A stretch of DNA of 22,827 bases, taken from a virus. Where the stretch lies: positions 1 to 22,827 of IMG/VR virus record IMGVR_UViG_3300014962_000019; one strand, written 5' to 3'. This document shows, piece after piece, positions 2,337 to 18,143 of the stretch. How positions within the stretch are numbered: position 1 is the stretch's first letter; each line of letters starts with the position of its first letter. The notes below the pieces were generated by a model. The model made no database searches. It saw nothing but the letters and a program-made list of their open reading frames with translations, and was not told the origin of the DNA. The position numbers and the translations under genes are program-made.

Positions 2337-2492
2337 ATGCCCCTCGTTAAATCTAAAAGCGACGCCGCTTTCCGCAAGAACGTCAAAGCCGAGATCGGTG
2401 CTGGCAAGCCGCCCAAGCAGGCAGTGGCCATCGCGTACTCCGTCAAGCGGGAAGCCGCCAAGAAACCCACCCCCACAAAGTCCAAAAAATGA
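2337..2492 (+). CDS. Small basic conserved phage protein, 51 aa
   Basis: This short gene starts two bases after the TerL stop and overlaps the next gene by four bases (ATGA). The product is 51 residues, Lys/Ala-rich, with a core [20 protein letters not shown] at 21-40 and a low-complexity tail of Lys, Pro and Thr. The [15 protein letters not shown] motif recurs in short proteins of many phages near head genes, as far as I recall, but I know of no assigned function. The basic charge would suit nucleic-acid binding or a scaffold-like adaptor role, which is only a guess. The close coupling on both sides is the best support that it is real. Confidence 0.75.
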
Positions 2493-2737
2493 CCCTGAAA
2501 GCCACCCAAGACTGCCTGATTGTCCGCCCGGACATGGAAAAACATGAGCTTTTCGTGCTGCTGCGTGAGAAGAAAACCGGTACCGGAATCGTGATTTCCG
2601 CGGGTCCGGACGCCAAAGACGTAAAAGTGGGCGACAAGGTGCTATTTGGTGATTCGATCGGTCAAGAATTACAATACATGGGTGAGCACCTTCTTGTGAT
2701 GCGCGAGGCTCACACACTCGGAGTATTTGACGCATGA
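2489..2737 (+). CDS. GroES-like co-chaperonin, 82 aa
   Basis: The protein matches the GroES (Cpn10) beta-barrel. It has an N-terminal strand DCLIVRP (8-14), the hallmark [11 protein letters not shown] (45-55) and a C-terminal [17 protein letters not shown] (65-81), which corresponds to the 'EEyLiMrEsDILaiv' end of GroES. At 82 residues it is shorter than E. coli GroES (97). The region aligning with the GroEL-binding mobile loop is about 15-30; its hydrophobic patch would be LFVLL (21-25) rather than the usual GGIVL. The start overlaps the previous stop (ATGA) and no Shine-Dalgarno is visible, so translation probably depends on coupling. Phage co-chaperonins such as T4 gp31 replace GroES for coat folding; a similar job is plausible here, before the portal and coat genes, but is inferred. 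Confidence 0.85.
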
Positions 2738-4905
2738 GCGATCCAACTGGCATCAATGCAGCCGCCAAGGTGGCAAACAACGGTCCGGACAACCCGGGCA
2801 AAGGCCACTCGGAGGTGCTGGCAGAAGCACGTCAGCGTTTGCAGATGGCCATTGACGCGCTGTCCGACAGCCGCGAAGACGAGATCGACGATCTCCGGTT
2901 CTATGCTGGCTCCCCGGACAACCAGTGGCAGTGGCCTGCGGATGTTCTGCAGACCCGCGGCTCGGTCAACGGTCAGACCATCAACGCTCGTCCCTGCCTG
3001 ACCATCAACAAGCTCCCTCAGCACGTTCATCAGGTCACCAATGAGCAACGGATGAACCGTCCGGGCATCAAGGTGATCCCGGCCGATGATGAGGCCGACA
3101 TCGACGTGGCCGAGGTTTACAACGGCGTGATTCGTCACATCGAGTACATCTCGGACGCCGACGTGGCCTATGACACGGCCTGTGAGAACCAGGTGTCCTA
3201 CGGTGAAGGCTACATTCGTCTACTGACCGAGTATTGCAGCGAAGACACCTTCGATCAGGACATCAAGATCGGGCGTATTCGCAACAGCTTTTCGGTCTAT
3301 ATGGACCCGCTGATCCAAGACCCCACGGGCGCAGATGCACGGTACTGTTTCATCACCGAAGACCTGACCAAAAAGGAATACGAGCGTCTGTACCCCAATG
3401 CGGCGCCGATCACGACCCTCATGAGTCTGGGCGTGGGTGATCAGTCGATCCAGCAATGGATCAATGAAGACACGGTGCGGATCGCCGAGTATTTTTACTA
3501 CGATCTCAAGCGCGAAACGCTTAACCTGTACCCCGGCAACGTGACCGCGTTCAACGGTACACCCGAGGACAAGCAGCTGCGGGCCATGTTTGGCAAGCCG
3601 CTCAAAAGCCGTGAAGCTGAGCGCAAGATCGTCAAGTGGCTCAAGATCAACGGCTACGAGGTGCTTGAGGAGCGCACATGGGCGGGTAAATACATCCCTG
3701 TAGTGCGTGTAGTCGGCAACGAGTACGAAGTCGATGGTCGCGTGTATGTGTCGGGCTTGGTGCGTAACGCCAAAGATGCTCAGCGCATGTACAACTACTG
3801 GGTGTCGCAAGAAGCCGAAATGCTGGCGCTGGCGCCCAAAGCTCCGTTCATTGGATACGGTGGTCAGTTTGAGGGTTACGAGACCCAATGGAAGACCGCC
3901 AACACGAACAACTGGCCTTATCTGGAAGTCAATCCTGATGTTACAGACGGCCAAGGCAATGTTCTGCCACTGCCCGCACGGGCACAGCCTCCGATGGCGT
4001 CCAGTGGTCTGCTGCAGGCCAAATCGGGTGCTGCTGAGGACATCAAGTCGTCCACGGGTCAGTACAACGCCTCGCTGGGCATGACCAGCAACGAGCGCTC
4101 CGGTAAAGCCATCTTGGCCCGTCAGCGTGAGGGTGACGTTGGCACCTATCACTACGTCGACAATCTGGCTCGTGCGATCCGCCATGTCGGTCGCCAGCTG
4201 GTCGATCTGATCCCCAAGATCTACGACACTGAGCGCGTGGCCCGCATCATCGGCGAAGATGGCGAACCCGCACTTGCCAAGATCAATCCGATGCAGCAAG
4301 AGCCGGTCAAGAAGATTGTTGACCAAGAGGGCACCGTGATCGACAAGATCTACAACCCCAGCGTGGGCAAGTACGATGTGCGTGTCATCACCGGTCCGGG
4401 TTACGCCACCAAGCGTCAGGAAGCTCTGGAGTCGATGGCTCAGTTGCTGCAGGGCAATCCGCAGCTGTGGCAGGTGGCGGGCGATCTGTTTGTCAAGAAC
4501 ATGGATTGGCCTGGTGCTCAGGATTTGGCCAAACGGTTCCAGAAAACACTGGATCCCAAGGTGCTGGCAGACGAGGACAATCCGGCTTTGGCTGCCGCCA
4601 ACCAGCAAATGCAGCAGATGGCTCAAGAGATGCAGATGATGCAAGGCATGCTGGCCAATGTGCAAAAGTCCTTTGAGGCCCGTGATCTTGAGATCAAAGA
4701 GTACGAAGCTCAGGTTAAGGCATATCAGGCCGAAACTCAGCGCATCAGCGCGGTGCAGGCCAGCATGTCACCCGAGCAGATCCAAGACATCGTGATGGGC
4801 ACAATCGCTGCTGCCGTGGATACGGGTGATCTGGTGGCAGGCATGCCCCGGATGCCCGAGGAGCCTGCCGGCATGGAAGCCCCGGAACAAGGAGAAATGC
4901 AATGA
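2734..4905 (+). CDS. Portal protein (P22 gp1-like)
   Basis: This 723-residue protein is close in length to the P22 portal (725). It forms the dodecameric ring at one capsid vertex, through which DNA enters and leaves. Visible landmarks are the early DDLRFYAGSPDNQW segment (about 50-65), the central KSSTGQYNASLGMTSNERSG region (about 437-456), typical of this portal family, and a Gln/Met-rich helix at about 620-680 that fits the C-terminal coiled-coil barrel of P22-type portals. GGAG at 2720-2723 lies ten bases upstream and the start overlaps the co-chaperonin stop. In P22 the scaffold gene follows directly; here about 5 kb of other genes intervenes. Confidence 0.93.
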   Translation: MSDPTGINAAAKVANNGPDNPGKGHSEVLAEARQRLQMAIDALSDSREDEIDDLRFYAGSPDNQWQWPADVLQTRGSVNGQTINARPCLTINKLPQHVHQVTNEQRMNRPGIKVIPADDEADIDVAEVYNGVIRHIEYISDADVAYDTACENQVSYGEGYIRLLTEYCSEDTFDQDIKIGRIRNSFSVYMDPLIQDPTGADARYCFITEDLTKKEYERLYPNAAPITTLMSLGVGDQSIQQWINEDTVRIAEYFYYDLKRETLNLYPGNVTAFNGTPEDKQLRAMFGKPLKSREAERKIVKWLKINGYEVLEERTWAGKYIPVVRVVGNEYEVDGRVYVSGLVRNAKDAQRMYNYWVSQEAEMLALAPKAPFIGYGGQFEGYETQWKTANTNNWPYLEVNPDVTDGQGNVLPLPARAQPPMASSGLLQAKSGAAEDIKSSTGQYNASLGMTSNERSGKAILARQREGDVGTYHYVDNLARAIRHVGRQLVDLIPKIYDTERVARIIGEDGEPALAKINPMQQEPVKKIVDQEGTVIDKIYNPSVGKYDVRVITGPGYATKRQEALESMAQLLQGNPQLWQVAGDLFVKNMDWPGAQDLAKRFQKTLDPKVLADEDNPALAAANQQMQQMAQEMQMMQGMLANVQKSFEARDLEIKEYEAQVKAYQAETQRISAVQASMSPEQIQDIVMGTIAAAVDTGDLVAGMPRMPEEPAGMEAPEQGEMQ

Positions 4906-5264
4906 AATGTGCTGATTTCGTAGGCACTCTGTTTTTGGCCCGGGATGTGGCCCATTCGGTGCATCTGAATACCCGCAGCTTTGCCAAACATTCGGCGCTG
5001 AACTCGTTTTACGATGACGTGGTCGAGTTGGCGGACAAGTTTGCCGAAGCATACCAAGGCCGCCATGGTCTAATTGGTCCCATCAGCTTGATGTCTGCCA
5101 AAAAAACAGGCAACATTGTGGAGTTCTTGGAGGATTCCTTGGCTGACATTGAGAAGATGCGCTACGAGGTGTGTGAGAAATCGGACACCGCGCTGCAAAA
5201 CATCATCGACGAGATCGTCGGTCAGTATCTGTCCACGCTGTACAAACTCAAGTTCTTGGCATGA
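4902..5264 (+). CDS. Small four-helix protein with Dps-like metal-site pattern
   Basis: The protein has 120 residues, nearly all predicted helical. AAGGAG at 4889-4894 gives a strong ribosome binding site and the start overlaps the portal stop. I recall similar phage proteins of unknown function (possibly the DUF5856 family). The helix 1-2 region has H18, H30, D45 and E49. These spacings (12, 15, 4) equal those of E. coli Dps ferroxidase residues H51, H63, D78 and E82; the fifth Dps ligand, D67, would be N34 here. The local context also resembles Dps (A17-H18, F27, then a helix to E49). The C-terminal helices (about 70-92 and 95-120) suit a minimal ferritin-like bundle, and DTALQNIIDEI resembles the last Dps helix. 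Iron or DNA binding is inferred, not shown. Confidence 0.7.
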   Translation: MKCADFVGTLFLARDVAHSVHLNTRSFAKHSALNSFYDDVVELADKFAEAYQGRHGLIGPISLMSAKKTGNIVEFLEDSLADIEKMRYEVCEKSDTALQNIIDEIVGQYLSTLYKLKFLA

Positions 5265-5480: not shown

Positions 5481-5900
5481 ATGCCTAAGTCCACCGCGCT
5501 TAATTTTACGCAGAACATCAAACTTGCCGCGACGACCATCGTCAACGCTGACAGCACGAATAAAAAGACGGTATTTACCGCTGGAGCAAACGATGCGGTG
5601 GTGAAATCGCTTCACGCTATCAGCGATGATTCTGCGGCCAAGGTGGTCAACATCTATGTGAATGATGGTTCAACCGATATATACATCGGCGCGGTAAACG
5701 TTCCAATCACCTCTGGCACGACTGGCGCGATTGCGGCAGTTGATCTGCTGAACGGTACATTGTTTCCGAACCTGCCTTATGACGCCAACGGCAAACGAGT
5801 TCTGCCCCTTCCTGGTGGCTACATCGTTAAGGTCTCCGTCCAAGTCGCTGTAACCGCTGCCAAAACGATCACCGTGACCTGCATGGCCGAGGACTATTAA
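5481..5900 (+). CDS. Probable beta-rich virion protein, 139 aa
   Basis: I do not recognise a named family. The 139-residue product is rich in Val, Thr, Ala and Gly, with alternating hydrophobic strands (for example VVNIYVNDGSTDIYIGAVNV at 55-74 and GGYIVKVSVQVAVTAAKTIT at 112-131). That pattern suggests a compact beta-sandwich such as a decoration, fibre-base or adaptor domain. It has no signal peptide or membrane segment. It starts one base after the preceding stop, with only a weak GGGAT ribosome site, and its own stop overlaps the next start (TAATG). Its place directly before the large adhesin suggests a partner or attachment protein, which is inference. Confidence 0.72.
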   Translation: MPKSTALNFTQNIKLAATTIVNADSTNKKTVFTAGANDAVVKSLHAISDDSAAKVVNIYVNDGSTDIYIGAVNVPITSGTTGAIAAVDLLNGTLFPNLPYDANGKRVLPLPGGYIVKVSVQVAVTAAKTITVTCMAEDY

Positions 5901-8734
5901 TGGCGTCCCTCCTTGATGGAAACCGGCTCAATCAAGGTATTCCCGCGAAACTGTCTAACGGGATTCGCGTAAACACCGATCTGGCAAAGCGTGGGCCAGA
6001 TTTGAGCCGTGGGCCTGGCATGGCAAAGCAAGCCATTGCCGCTGCCTGGTCAAACACATGGCCTGCACCCGGAGCCACACTCGACCTTGACTTTGCCAAC
6101 AACCGTGGGTTTGTCCGTGGTGTTGGCCAAGGCGGGGCGATGGATGCTGTGACGTTTACACGGGCCAGTAATGGCACGTTTGTGGGCAGCAACGGTCTAT
6201 TGGCAGGTAGTGGCAGCGACAAGGGTGCGTTGGGGCTGAACCTACTGACGTTCCCGCAGGATTTTGATAATGCGGCGTGGTTGAAAAACGGTGTAACCGT
6301 TACCGCAAATACAGGCATTGCTCCTGACGATACACAGACTACGGATTCATTGTTTGAAACCGCAGTAAATCAAGCGCACAGTATTAGACAGGCGTTTACG
6401 ACAGGAGCGCAATCTAACTACGCGCTCACTTTCAGCGTATATGTAAAACCGAATGGACGGGATTGGTGCGCTGTTCAAGTAACCGACACAGGAAGTAATT
6501 ATTATTTTGCATACGTCAATTTATCGACAGGTGCAACCGGCACAACAGGCTCAGCAGGAACTTCCAGCAATTCAGTCACTGTAACAGCGGATAAAAATGG
6601 TTTTTATCGGGTTGTTATTAAAACGACGTTTACTTCTATTGCAAGCGTGGTTCGTCCTGAAGTTTTGTGCGCTAGTGCGGACAACGTTGCTACTTATGTC
6701 GGAGATGTCACTAAAGGCATCTTCATCTGGGGCGCACAGCTAGAACTCGGCTCCACCGCTACGACCTACTACCCCACGAACATCAACGCACCACGGTTTG
6801 ACTGGGCGAGTACGGCGGTAACGGCGAATAGGAACATCCTTACTTATACGGAACAGTTTGATAATTCTGTTTGGATAAAGAATTCAGCTACTGTTACCGC
6901 AAATGCTATTTCTGCGCCAGACGGAAGTCTTACAGCCGATTTATTGACAGCCACTGGAAGTGGCGCAAACGCTCAATATCAAATTGGTTTTCCTGCTGGC
7001 ATTTATACAATTAGTGTTTATGCAAAACGAGGAAACAGCGATTGGTTTGCTTTAAGTAACGGTGGGTTTTTTGCTTATTTCAACATTTCAACAGGAACTG
7101 TAGGTACTGTTGGCGATGGTACTGCGTCTGTTGTGGATGTTGGCGGTGGTTGGTATCGTTGTGTTTGGGTTCCAGCAACTGCTTCTTCTAACGGCACACT
7201 TAGAATTCGGTGTGCGGTTGCAAACGGCAATACCAGCACTACAACAGAAAACGCTTACATCTGGGGGGCACAGATTGAAGCCGGTACATCATTGTCTTCT
7301 TATCAGGCAATCGGCGCTCAGTCTCCCACCAACACCCCTCTAGCCGCTGCATCCACCTGCAACGGCCTGCTGATCGAGGAATCCCGCACGAACAGGCTGC
7401 TGTGGTGTCGGTCTGGTTCATCAGGAACGGGGCAAAATGCTTTTACCTATTCTCAGACATTTAACAATGCTGCTTGGGTCGCAACTGCTACTACGTTGAC
7501 ATTGGGAATAACAGATCCTTCTAGTGGAACAACAGCAGCTACTTTACTGGCTACAAGTGCTAATGCAACTTTCTATCAGACACAAACATTGAACAATGCT
7601 CCATATACAGTATCGTTTTATGTTCAACGTGTCTTAGGATCTGGCCCTATTTCTTTTACTTTGGATGGAACAAACTTTACAGATATTTCTGCTCCAACAG
7701 GATCGTGGGTTAGATATTCTGTTACGGCCACTCCCGCAGCAGGGGCGAGAACTATTGGTATCCGTATTGCAACATTAGGAGATTCAATCAATATTGCTTT
7801 TGCCCAACTGAACATTGGGGCAGTGCTGACAGATTATCAAGTAACAACATCTTCGGCATTATTTGGGTGGTCTAAATCTAATGCTACAGTTGCCCAGAAC
7901 CAGACCGGTATTGACGGTGCAGCCAACGCAGCCACAAGCATCACAGCTTCTGCTGCCAATGCTGTACTGATCCAGCCAATTTCTTTGGCCTCAGGCTCCC
8001 GCACATCCTCCGTCTACCTCAAGCGCATCACAGGCACTGGCAACGTTCAAGTAAGCCTTGATGGTTCAACATGGTCTACTGTTGACCTGTCCAATGGTCT
8101 ATGGAACCGCATTGTGCTGTCGGGCACTGTCACGAACCCTGTAGTGGGTATCAGGCTGGCAACGAACGGCGATGCTGTGGCGATGGACTATGGGCAGGTG
8201 GAAGATGGGGCAAATGCGACAAGTCCGGTGCTAACTACTGGCGCTACGGCCACACGCAGTAGCGACATTGCCAGTCTTTCAACCAGCGTTATTTCAAGAT
8301 TTATAAATCAGTTCAGAGGTATTTGGACTTGCACTTTTAACGTTTATTCGTCAGGCGCTTTATCTGTAAATCCTAGGGCCTTGTCTCAAGGTCAAACACA
8401 AAACGCACAGGGATTGATAGTCATAAACAGTACCGGACTTGCTTCGGTGTTTGACGGATCAAACGTTTTGAGCGATAGGGCTTATGTAGCTGGCACCTTT
8501 GCTACTGCGTCCATGTTTTATGACCAATATAAAAAATCAATATCGTTAAATGGAGGGGTGGCTGGTTACGGTGACAGGGCTACATCATTTCCGTTAACGC
8601 CTGTTAACTACGTTGTAATTGGAGCGGCTACCGGGTCATCAAACTTTGTTAATGGCGCAATCAAGCGTGTTTATTACGTCCCCGGTCAAGGCAATCAAAC
8701 GTCTTTGTCCGTTTCTTCTAGCGGTGCAACATGA
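5900..8734 (+). CDS. Large multi-module adhesin / head-fibre protein, 944 aa
   Basis: This is the largest protein in the window. Residues 1-61 form an N-terminal attachment region and 62-101 contain LDLDFANNRG and TFTRASNGTFV, typical of phage spike proteins. Carbohydrate-binding-like beta-sandwich repeats follow at about 114-295, 312-470, 514-650 and 655-780. The first three open with the pattern N-hydrophobic-T-aromatic...F(D/N)N-x-x-W (NLLTFPQDFDNAAW, NILTYTEQFDNSVW, NAFTYSQTFNNAAW). A LamG-like C-terminal domain spans about 785-944. GAGG at 5889-5892 precedes the start. Repeat cores are AT-rich (about 37-40% GC in counted lines) while linkers are about 60% GC, suggesting modular exchange. 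Host glycan binding is inferred. Its place between portal and scaffold differs from the usual P22 fibre position. Confidence 0.85.
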   Translation: MASLLDGNRLNQGIPAKLSNGIRVNTDLAKRGPDLSRGPGMAKQAIAAAWSNTWPAPGATLDLDFANNRGFVRGVGQGGAMDAVTFTRASNGTFVGSNGLLAGSGSDKGALGLNLLTFPQDFDNAAWLKNGVTVTANTGIAPDDTQTTDSLFETAVNQAHSIRQAFTTGAQSNYALTFSVYVKPNGRDWCAVQVTDTGSNYYFAYVNLSTGATGTTGSAGTSSNSVTVTADKNGFYRVVIKTTFTSIASVVRPEVLCASADNVATYVGDVTKGIFIWGAQLELGSTATTYYPTNINAPRFDWASTAVTANRNILTYTEQFDNSVWIKNSATVTANAISAPDGSLTADLLTATGSGANAQYQIGFPAGIYTISVYAKRGNSDWFALSNGGFFAYFNISTGTVGTVGDGTASVVDVGGGWYRCVWVPATASSNGTLRIRCAVANGNTSTTTENAYIWGAQIEAGTSLSSYQAIGAQSPTNTPLAAASTCNGLLIEESRTNRLLWCRSGSSGTGQNAFTYSQTFNNAAWVATATTLTLGITDPSSGTTAATLLATSANATFYQTQTLNNAPYTVSFYVQRVLGSGPISFTLDGTNFTDISAPTGSWVRYSVTATPAAGARTIGIRIATLGDSINIAFAQLNIGAVLTDYQVTTSSALFGWSKSNATVAQNQTGIDGAANAATSITASAANAVLIQPISLASGSRTSSVYLKRITGTGNVQVSLDGSTWSTVDLSNGLWNRIVLSGTVTNPVVGIRLATNGDAVAMDYGQVEDGANATSPVLTTGATATRSSDIASLSTSVISRFINQFRGIWTCTFNVYSSGALSVNPRALSQGQTQNAQGLIVINSTGLASVFDGSNVLSDRAYVAGTFATASMFYDQYKKSISLNGGVAGYGDRATSFPLTPVNYVVIGAATGSSNFVNGAIKRVYYVPGQGNQTSLSVSSSGAT

Positions 8735-17268: not shown

Positions 17269-17679
17269 ATGAAAGACGTCATCATCTTCACCAACGACAA
17301 CGGCGGCGTGTCTGTCTGCGTTCCGACTGGCGAACTGTCTATCGAGCAGGTGCAATCCAAGGACTGCCCAGCCGACTCCTACATCGTGGCCGCATCCAGC
17401 TTGCCCGAGGAAGACAACGACTTTTTCAACGCATGGGAACAGACCCGTGGTATTGTGACGGTCAATCTGTCCAAGGCCAAGGAAATCACAAAGAGCCGTC
17501 TTCGTGCTGAACGTGAACCCTTGCTTGCGGCGCAGGACATTGCATTTCAACGAGCGCTTGAAACCGGCGCAGATACTTCAACCATTGTGGCTGAAAAGCA
17601 GCGCCTGCGCGATGTGACCCAATTGGTTGACGCCTGCACCAGCACGGCTCAGTTGCGCGCATTGCAGGTGAGCGCCTGA
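17269..17679 (+). CDS. Conserved fibre-linked protein, 136 aa
   Basis: The 136-residue product follows the fibre with a good AAAGGA site (17257-17262). The N-terminal half is a small beta domain (VIIFTNDNGGVSVCVPTGEL). The C-terminal half is a long charged helix with VNLSKAKEITKSRLRAEREP, then ETGADTSTIVAEKQRLRDVT and a final LRALQVSA. I recall the KAKEITK-x-RLRAER...EKQRLRDVT pattern in fibre-associated proteins of many phages. It resembles the C-terminal helices of tail-fibre assembly proteins, so a fibre chaperone role is plausible but inferred. Its stop overlaps the next start. Confidence 0.75.
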   Translation: MKDVIIFTNDNGGVSVCVPTGELSIEQVQSKDCPADSYIVAASSLPEEDNDFFNAWEQTRGIVTVNLSKAKEITKSRLRAEREPLLAAQDIAFQRALETGADTSTIVAEKQRLRDVTQLVDACTSTAQLRALQVSA

Positions 17680-18143
17680 TGCAAGTGACTTACGGCAAAG
17701 GGTTTGAGATCAGACCACATCGCACGCTTAAAGAGCGAGTCGATGATCTGCAGTCAGAGATCTCAAGGCACCCTCAATACGAGCCGCCGACGGAGCATGT
17801 GTTCCACGGTGGCATGTATTGCCGTCAGGTGTGGCGCCCGGCCGGCTGCCTGATCGTCGGCAAGGTTCACAAAAAAGAGCATTTTTACATGGTCGTGTCG
17901 GGCACCGTGAAAGTGACAACGGACGACGGCGTCCAGACAATTACGGGTCCGTTTCTGCTGTGCAGCAAACCCGGCACCAAGCGGGCCGTGTACGCTGAAA
18001 CCGATGCACTTTGCATGACCATTCACAGGGTTGAATCAAACACGGTTGAGGACGTAGAATCCGAGCTAGTGGAAGATGATCCCAATTCCATGTTCACCAT
18101 TGGCAACAAGGTGAAAAATCTTGAAATCGAGGTGAAACCATGA
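17679..18143 (+). CDS. Cupin-like phage protein, 154 aa
   Basis: A cupin-like beta barrel is suggested at about 50-120. GKVHKKEHFYMVVSGTVKVT (61-80) resembles cupin motif 1, with H64 and H68, and GPFLLCSKPGTKRAVYAETD (90-109) resembles motif 2 with PG-x-x-R. H116 in TIHRV could be a further metal ligand. The exact H-x-H-x3,4-E metal triad is not complete, so metal binding is uncertain. The C-terminal 35 residues are acidic and end in KNLEIEVKP. The start overlaps the previous gene's stop and the end overlaps the ejection gene. It may have an enzymatic, sensing or purely structural role in the virion. Confidence 0.72.
   Translation: MQVTYGKGFEIRPHRTLKERVDDLQSEISRHPQYEPPTEHVFHGGMYCRQVWRPAGCLIVGKVHKKEHFYMVVSGTVKVTTDDGVQTITGPFLLCSKPGTKRAVYAETDALCMTIHRVESNTVEDVESELVEDDPNSMFTIGNKVKNLEIEVKP

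Follow-up and report, generated by a model that had tools for sequence, protein, structure and literature searches.

A compact phage protein of the DUF5856 family, to which T4 RI.-1 belongs, with a predicted ferritin-type fold and a predicted Dps-type metal site

Results

The DUF5856 gene and its neighborhood

The window analyzed here, a stretch of 22,827 nucleotides, belongs to a virus record of 38.8 kb and carries, in order, genes for the terminase small and large subunits, a GroES-like protein, the portal protein and a protein of the DUF5856 family, then two short ORFs and genes for a large protein, the scaffold and the major capsid protein. These neighbors were named from their PHROG matches, except that the terminase large subunit was assigned by its position and by comparison with phage DSL-LC05, where the genes follow the same order. 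The portal and DUF5856 genes and the codons discussed below are collected in Table 1.

The ORF picked out in the first-pass annotation does translate to a 120-residue protein with H18, H30, N34, D45 and E49 as claimed, and the translation bears out the separations of 12, 15 and 4 residues between the two histidines, the aspartate and the glutamate. The Ala-His pair described before the first ligand is there (A17-H18), as is the D-x-x-A-E ending (D45-K-F-A-E49), whereas the aromatic placed before the second ligand exists as F27 but lies three residues ahead of H30, residue 29 being a lysine. The start of the gene overlaps the portal stop by 4 bases (ATGA), an arrangement seen likewise in 51 of 78 close relatives, with a GGAG at 4890-4893 upstream, and the ORF also overlaps the start of the next one. 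Codon differences among 79 close homologues are mostly at third positions, with synonymous changes in excess (3,647 versus 1,715), which marks the ORF as a genuine gene kept by purifying selection. Searches of this region for RNA families, tRNAs and promoter signals found none.

Table 1. Positions of the two genes and of the codons for conserved or Dps-equivalent residues
Feature	Position	Strand	Description	Evidence
Portal protein gene	2734..4905	+		PHROG 156 E 2.2e-135; synteny
DUF5856 / PHROG 858 gene	4902..5264	+	120 codons plus stop; predicted compact Dps-like ferritin-fold protein	Pfam PF19174 E 1.6e-20, PHROG 858 E 1.4e-25, AF2
Codon H18	4953..4955	+	Near-invariant additional His, one turn ahead of the Dps-type His; pairs with Dps K48	
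Codon H21	4962..4964	+	Invariant; equivalent to Dps H51	
Codon H30	4989..4991	+	Invariant; equivalent to Dps H63	
Codon N34	5001..5003	+	Dps D67 position; unconserved (G 16, N 4, D 4 of 26)	
Codon D45	5034..5036	+	Invariant; equivalent to Dps D78 (which the partner subunit supplies in Dps)	
Codon E49	5046..5048	+	Invariant; equivalent to Dps E82	
Codon Y114	5241..5243	+	Invariant; aligns with Dps W160, itself invariant in the Dps set used	

Three other genes of the window drew attention. A GroES-like co-chaperonin gene (2489-2737, plus strand; PHROG 3188, 1.3e-8) lies directly upstream of the portal gene, and phage DSL-LC05, cta1H496 and L102 likewise have GroES-like genes close to their DUF5856 genes. 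Three genes past the DUF5856 gene, 5900-8734 (plus strand) encodes a 944-residue protein with apparent repeated carbohydrate-binding-like modules, and 17679-18143 (plus strand) encodes a 154-residue protein, cupin-like on visual inspection, with matches to short tail fiber and tail fiber adhesin PHROGs (2.4e-34).

Distribution and annotation of the family

The window protein scores 74.4 bits against DUF5856 (PF19174; cut-off 34.6) and matches PHROG 858 over residues 2-119. The family is present in 1,413 of 50,697 phage records, largely from phages resembling T4 or the Ackermannviridae, and hundreds of viral contigs from the environment also carry it; the product of T4-type rI.-1 is a member. 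A plasmid search found no plasmid carrying it, and a scan of bacterial genomes returned only two phage-like MAG contigs. The description of the family as one of unknown function holds for Pfam, but PHROGs already gives PHROG 858 a label, 'starvation-inducible transcriptional regulator', whose wording suggests that automatic annotation had suspected a link with Dps. This label, which many phage records repeat, seems misleading: no regulatory domain was seen in the family, and Dps is itself not a classical transcription regulator. In the literature on DUF5856, phage-encoded ferritin and phage Dps, of which our coverage was incomplete, we found nothing that names the family ferritin-like.

The predicted fold is a four-helix bundle closest to Dps

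An AlphaFold2 model built from the family alignment has four helices (residues 3-23, 27-55, 72-90 and 96-118), with a pLDDT of 95.5 and a pTM of 0.89, and no helix in residues 56-71, where the BC helix was looked for. A Foldseek search of the PDB with this model gave best matches that are nearly all Dps, although with E-values of only about 0.05, and VIA-align placed MsDps2 first (Z 13.8, rmsd 2.4, 118 of 120 residues), with E. coli Dps at Z 12.2-12.7 and bacterioferritins at about 12. The T4-type RI.-1 model shows the same four helices and ligands (pLDDT 92.9; Z 14.0 on MsDps2) and three helical residues (78-80) in the B-C region. The structure prediction proposed as a check on the suggested ferritin-like bundle thus returned a four-helix bundle with Dps proteins as its best solved matches, and no rival fold was obtained. 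Computation supports a predicted ferritin-type four-helix bundle of the ferritin-like superfamily for the window protein. Dps, bacterioferritin and YciE-type structures together head the structural list at Z 12-14, the latter two superposing nearly as well as Dps, and scores of this size are by themselves indecisive for helical bundles; for this reason, we sought evidence from sequence.

In a library of viral structures, the predicted folds of two giant-virus proteins, from Pithovirus LCPAC404 (A0A481ZC29) and Fadolivirus (A0A7D3V608), also match that of the window protein (E 7e-5 and 2e-3, 24-26% identity), from which the DUF5856 family may extend to eukaryotic viruses.

Profiles link the family to Dps

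A single-sequence search of the PDB with the window protein found nothing, and a profile was required. When the family profile was run with hmmsearch against all PDB sequences, the first match was H. pylori NAP, a Dps (2.1e-5), with many more Dps proteins below it. Aligned by hhalign to 12 diverse Dps proteins, the family scores 44-46 (probability 91-94), whereas the best of 200 column-shuffled profiles reaches 18.7 and the reversed profile 13.3; the profile comparison proposed earlier therefore favors Dps over its controls. Masking the ligand residues drops the score to 20.8, so these residues account for much of the profile similarity. Searches in the other direction agree: E-values of 3.4e-5 and 1.6e-4 were obtained for true Dps proteins against PHROG 858, and 11 of 67 DUF5856 members match PHROG 3636, which the matches of real Dps proteins identify as the Dps PHROG, at up to 3.2e-6. 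The Pfam Ferritin model (PF00210) matches neither the window protein nor anything else in the 38.8-kb record and is matched weakly by 1 of 67 family members (E 0.024). It is highly probable that the DUF5856 family is homologous to Dps.

Invariant residues and the register of the ligands

When the protein was shuffled 100,000 times, the H/H/D/E spacing arose by chance in 56 cases; it occurs in 274 of 293 family members but in just 1 of 3,998 other ORFs. Conservation carries much more weight than this spacing: H21, H30, D45, E49 and Y114 are invariant in 26 representatives sharing less than 62% identity and in 67 of 67 diverse members, and they persist in family members with as little as 23% identity. 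An aromatic and four metal-capable residues that stay fixed throughout are strong evidence for a putative functional site. Of the four residues whose conservation the first-pass annotation had asked about, H30, D45 and E49 are thus invariant and H18 is only near-invariant (24 of 26 representatives, with Arg or Gln in the exceptions), the first family-wide invariant histidine being H21. H18, N100, D103 and E104 are 80-92% conserved. One divergent group (L196-L202 and L204) has Arg or Gln at position 18 and retains H21, as seen in its representatives L202 and L204.

The hhalign register pairs H21 with Dps H51, L22 with W52, H30 with H63, N34 with D67, D45 with D78, E49 with E82, A50 with R83 and Y114 with W160. 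Between H30 and E49, helix B and its Dps counterpart align ungapped, and the phage A-B loop lacks three residues present in that of Dps. The ungapped alternative, in which H18 would be H51, was rejected, as hhalign still holds H21 on H51 when H21 alone is masked, shifting to H18 only if residue 22 is masked as well; deleting Dps loop residues 56-58 raises the hhalign score. In members from jumbo phages, HLQVRGDEGSYAKH lines up with Dps HWNMRGANFIAVH and the His-His spacing is 13, so the length of the A-B loop varies in the family. Judged by their alignment, these longer-loop members settle the register at H21 on H51. It follows from the shorter loop that the 12-residue spacing of H18 and H30 is an off-register coincidence; the proposal of a Dps-type site stands in that the Dps-type ligands are conserved, but the H51 equivalent is H21 and not H18. 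The jumbo-phage members concerned (L206-L215, L090 and L091) have a Dps-like V-R-G stretch as well as the longer loop, and L090 and L091 have long N-terminal extensions too.

Other Dps features are less well kept. The replacement of D67 by N34 is as described, the position being mostly Gly across the family. R83 of the A-E-R signature, invariant in the 12 aligned Dps proteins, is A50 in the window protein and is not kept in the family, and the W52 position, L22 here, is only sometimes aromatic.

Discussion

A proposed metal site between subunits

In the model, H30 is separated from D45 and E49 by 15-19 residues of one continuous helix B (27-55), or about 22 Å and 28 Å at 1.5 Å per residue; at such distances these residues could not share a metal within one chain, and a two-fold dimer would be needed. 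In Dps, a two-fold dimer brings H51 and H63 of one subunit to D78 and E82 of the other, and D67 helps to hold the second iron. Given this distance along helix B and the residue-by-residue match to Dps, we propose an inter-subunit site, in which one subunit would supply H21, from the end of its helix A, and H30, from the start of its helix B, and its two-fold mate would supply D45 and E49 of helix B; together these would form one metal site, and each dimer would have two. H18 and Y114 would probably line or tune the site. Iron is the likely metal, which might be oxidized or sequestered during infection, and the benefit to the phage could be less Fenton damage, or an altered redox state of the cell, while its DNA is made and packaged. 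Whereas the four-helix fold and the Dps-type metal site are supported by computation, the dimer, the metal, its oxidation and the benefit are what we infer. The loss of D67 and the additional H18 leave room for another metal or for a one-metal site. On balance, and with moderate confidence, we read the window protein as a compact Dps-like metal-binding, probably iron-oxidizing protein made during infection, with an inter-subunit site.

The same residues could serve another end if the Dps-like inter-subunit metal held together a small dimer acting as an adaptor or regulator, for example in lysis timing, without oxidizing iron. The loss of D67 alone of the five ligands suits such a role, as do the operon that T4 rI.-1 shares with the antiholin gene rI and the slight delay in the collapse of lysis inhibition when rI.-1 is overexpressed, a result of Golec et al. 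(2010) as relayed in a review (PMC6832632). However, jumbo phage RaK2 has an RI.-1-like protein and lacks T holin, RI, RI.1 and RIII (PMC3622015), and most lineages have no rI neighbor. Lysis inhibition therefore cannot be the general role, and we consider the adaptor or regulator unlikely. Still less probable, in our view, are separate metal sites within each subunit, with H18, H21 and H30 near Y114 at one end and D45 and E49 with N100, D103 and E104 at the other, an arrangement unlike Dps. The conservation of H18, N100, D103 and E104 speaks for it, and the bundle superposes well on bacterioferritins, whose sites are intra-subunit; against it, helix B keeps the register and phase of Dps without a gap from H30 to E49, Y114 falls on W160, and the conserved set is that of Dps and not the ferritin E/E-x-x-H set.

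A place in the phage head had been suggested for this protein, whose gene comes directly after the portal gene, and Dps is able to condense DNA. This position holds in the window lineage, where the gene lies within 20 nucleotides of the portal stop in 78 of 78 close relatives with enough upstream sequence, but in that lineage only. The gene is located elsewhere, outside the head operon, in T4, Ackermannviridae, Caulobacter and jumbo phages: beside rI and tk in T4-like phages, beside the primase gene in Ackermannviridae, beside tail-fiber-type genes in L186, and in other lineages beside an M15 peptidase gene or an endonuclease and a GroES gene. Moreover, this is an acidic family, with a median pI of 5.5 and no member above 8, and the window protein lacks a basic tail, which lends no support to DNA binding, and a DNA-compacting or DNA-protecting head protein appears very improbable. 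A general metal or redox function fits these scattered contexts better than a part in the head or in lysis. That the fold and ligands resemble Dps by convergence or accident is barely credible: four-helix bundles are common, and middling structural Z-scores weigh little for them, but the profile evidence runs both ways and exceeds that of shuffled controls, and five invariant residues stand in register. In sum, the observation made in the first-pass annotation is confirmed, and its interpretation is partly supported, being right in kind, with one ligand wrong and the place of action unsupported.

Significance

In one collection, more than 1,400 sequenced phages have a DUF5856 gene, T4 included, where rI.-1 was previously tied to lysis inhibition with no known biochemistry. 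The family is worth testing chiefly since T4 RI.-1 belongs to it. The predicted four-ligand Dps-type site makes this family of unknown function directly testable, and the corrected register points mutagenesis at H21 and not at H18 alone. More tentatively, the family may be one of minimal ferritin-like metalloproteins, T4 RI.-1 among them, that form Dps-like dimers or small shells controlling the chemistry of iron or peroxide inside infected cells. If this were true, the metal or redox state would be a common target of unrelated phages, possibly tied to the timing of lysis.

Comparison with known systems

T4 RI.-1 belongs to the same family as the window protein and shares its predicted four helices and ligands, at 28% identity between the two, but its gene follows the lysis-inhibition gene rI where the window gene follows that of the portal. 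Phages with true Dps have been reported (PMC8008677), and phage-borne true Dps (Streptomyces phages, gut 'Gratiaviridae' and Lactobacillus phages; PHROG 3636) shows weak but significant similarity to the window family. We found such true Dps proteins in Streptomyces phages such as Mildred21, whose Dps differs in that it retains both signatures of cellular Dps, HW and AER, along with its longer A-B loop, and in that it belongs to a PHROG other than 858. Bacterioferritin and mini-bacterioferritin have the same fold (Z about 12), but bacterioferritin has an intra-subunit di-iron site with different ligands, and the phage ligand set does not match theirs.

The closest likeness is to Dps itself (E. 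coli 1DPS, H. pylori NAP, Listeria), with which the phage protein shares the predicted four-helix bundle, H21, H30, D45 and E49 as equivalents of H51, H63, D78 and E82, profile similarity in both directions and an invariant aromatic, Y114 here where Dps has W160. It differs in having 120 residues against about 150-167, a shorter A-B loop, an extra near-invariant histidine, H18, and no basic tail. Because it is shorter and is without D67, R83, the BC helix and a Pfam Ferritin match, we set the family apart: it is distinct and is not classed as a Dps, yet it is related to Dps and probably works like it.
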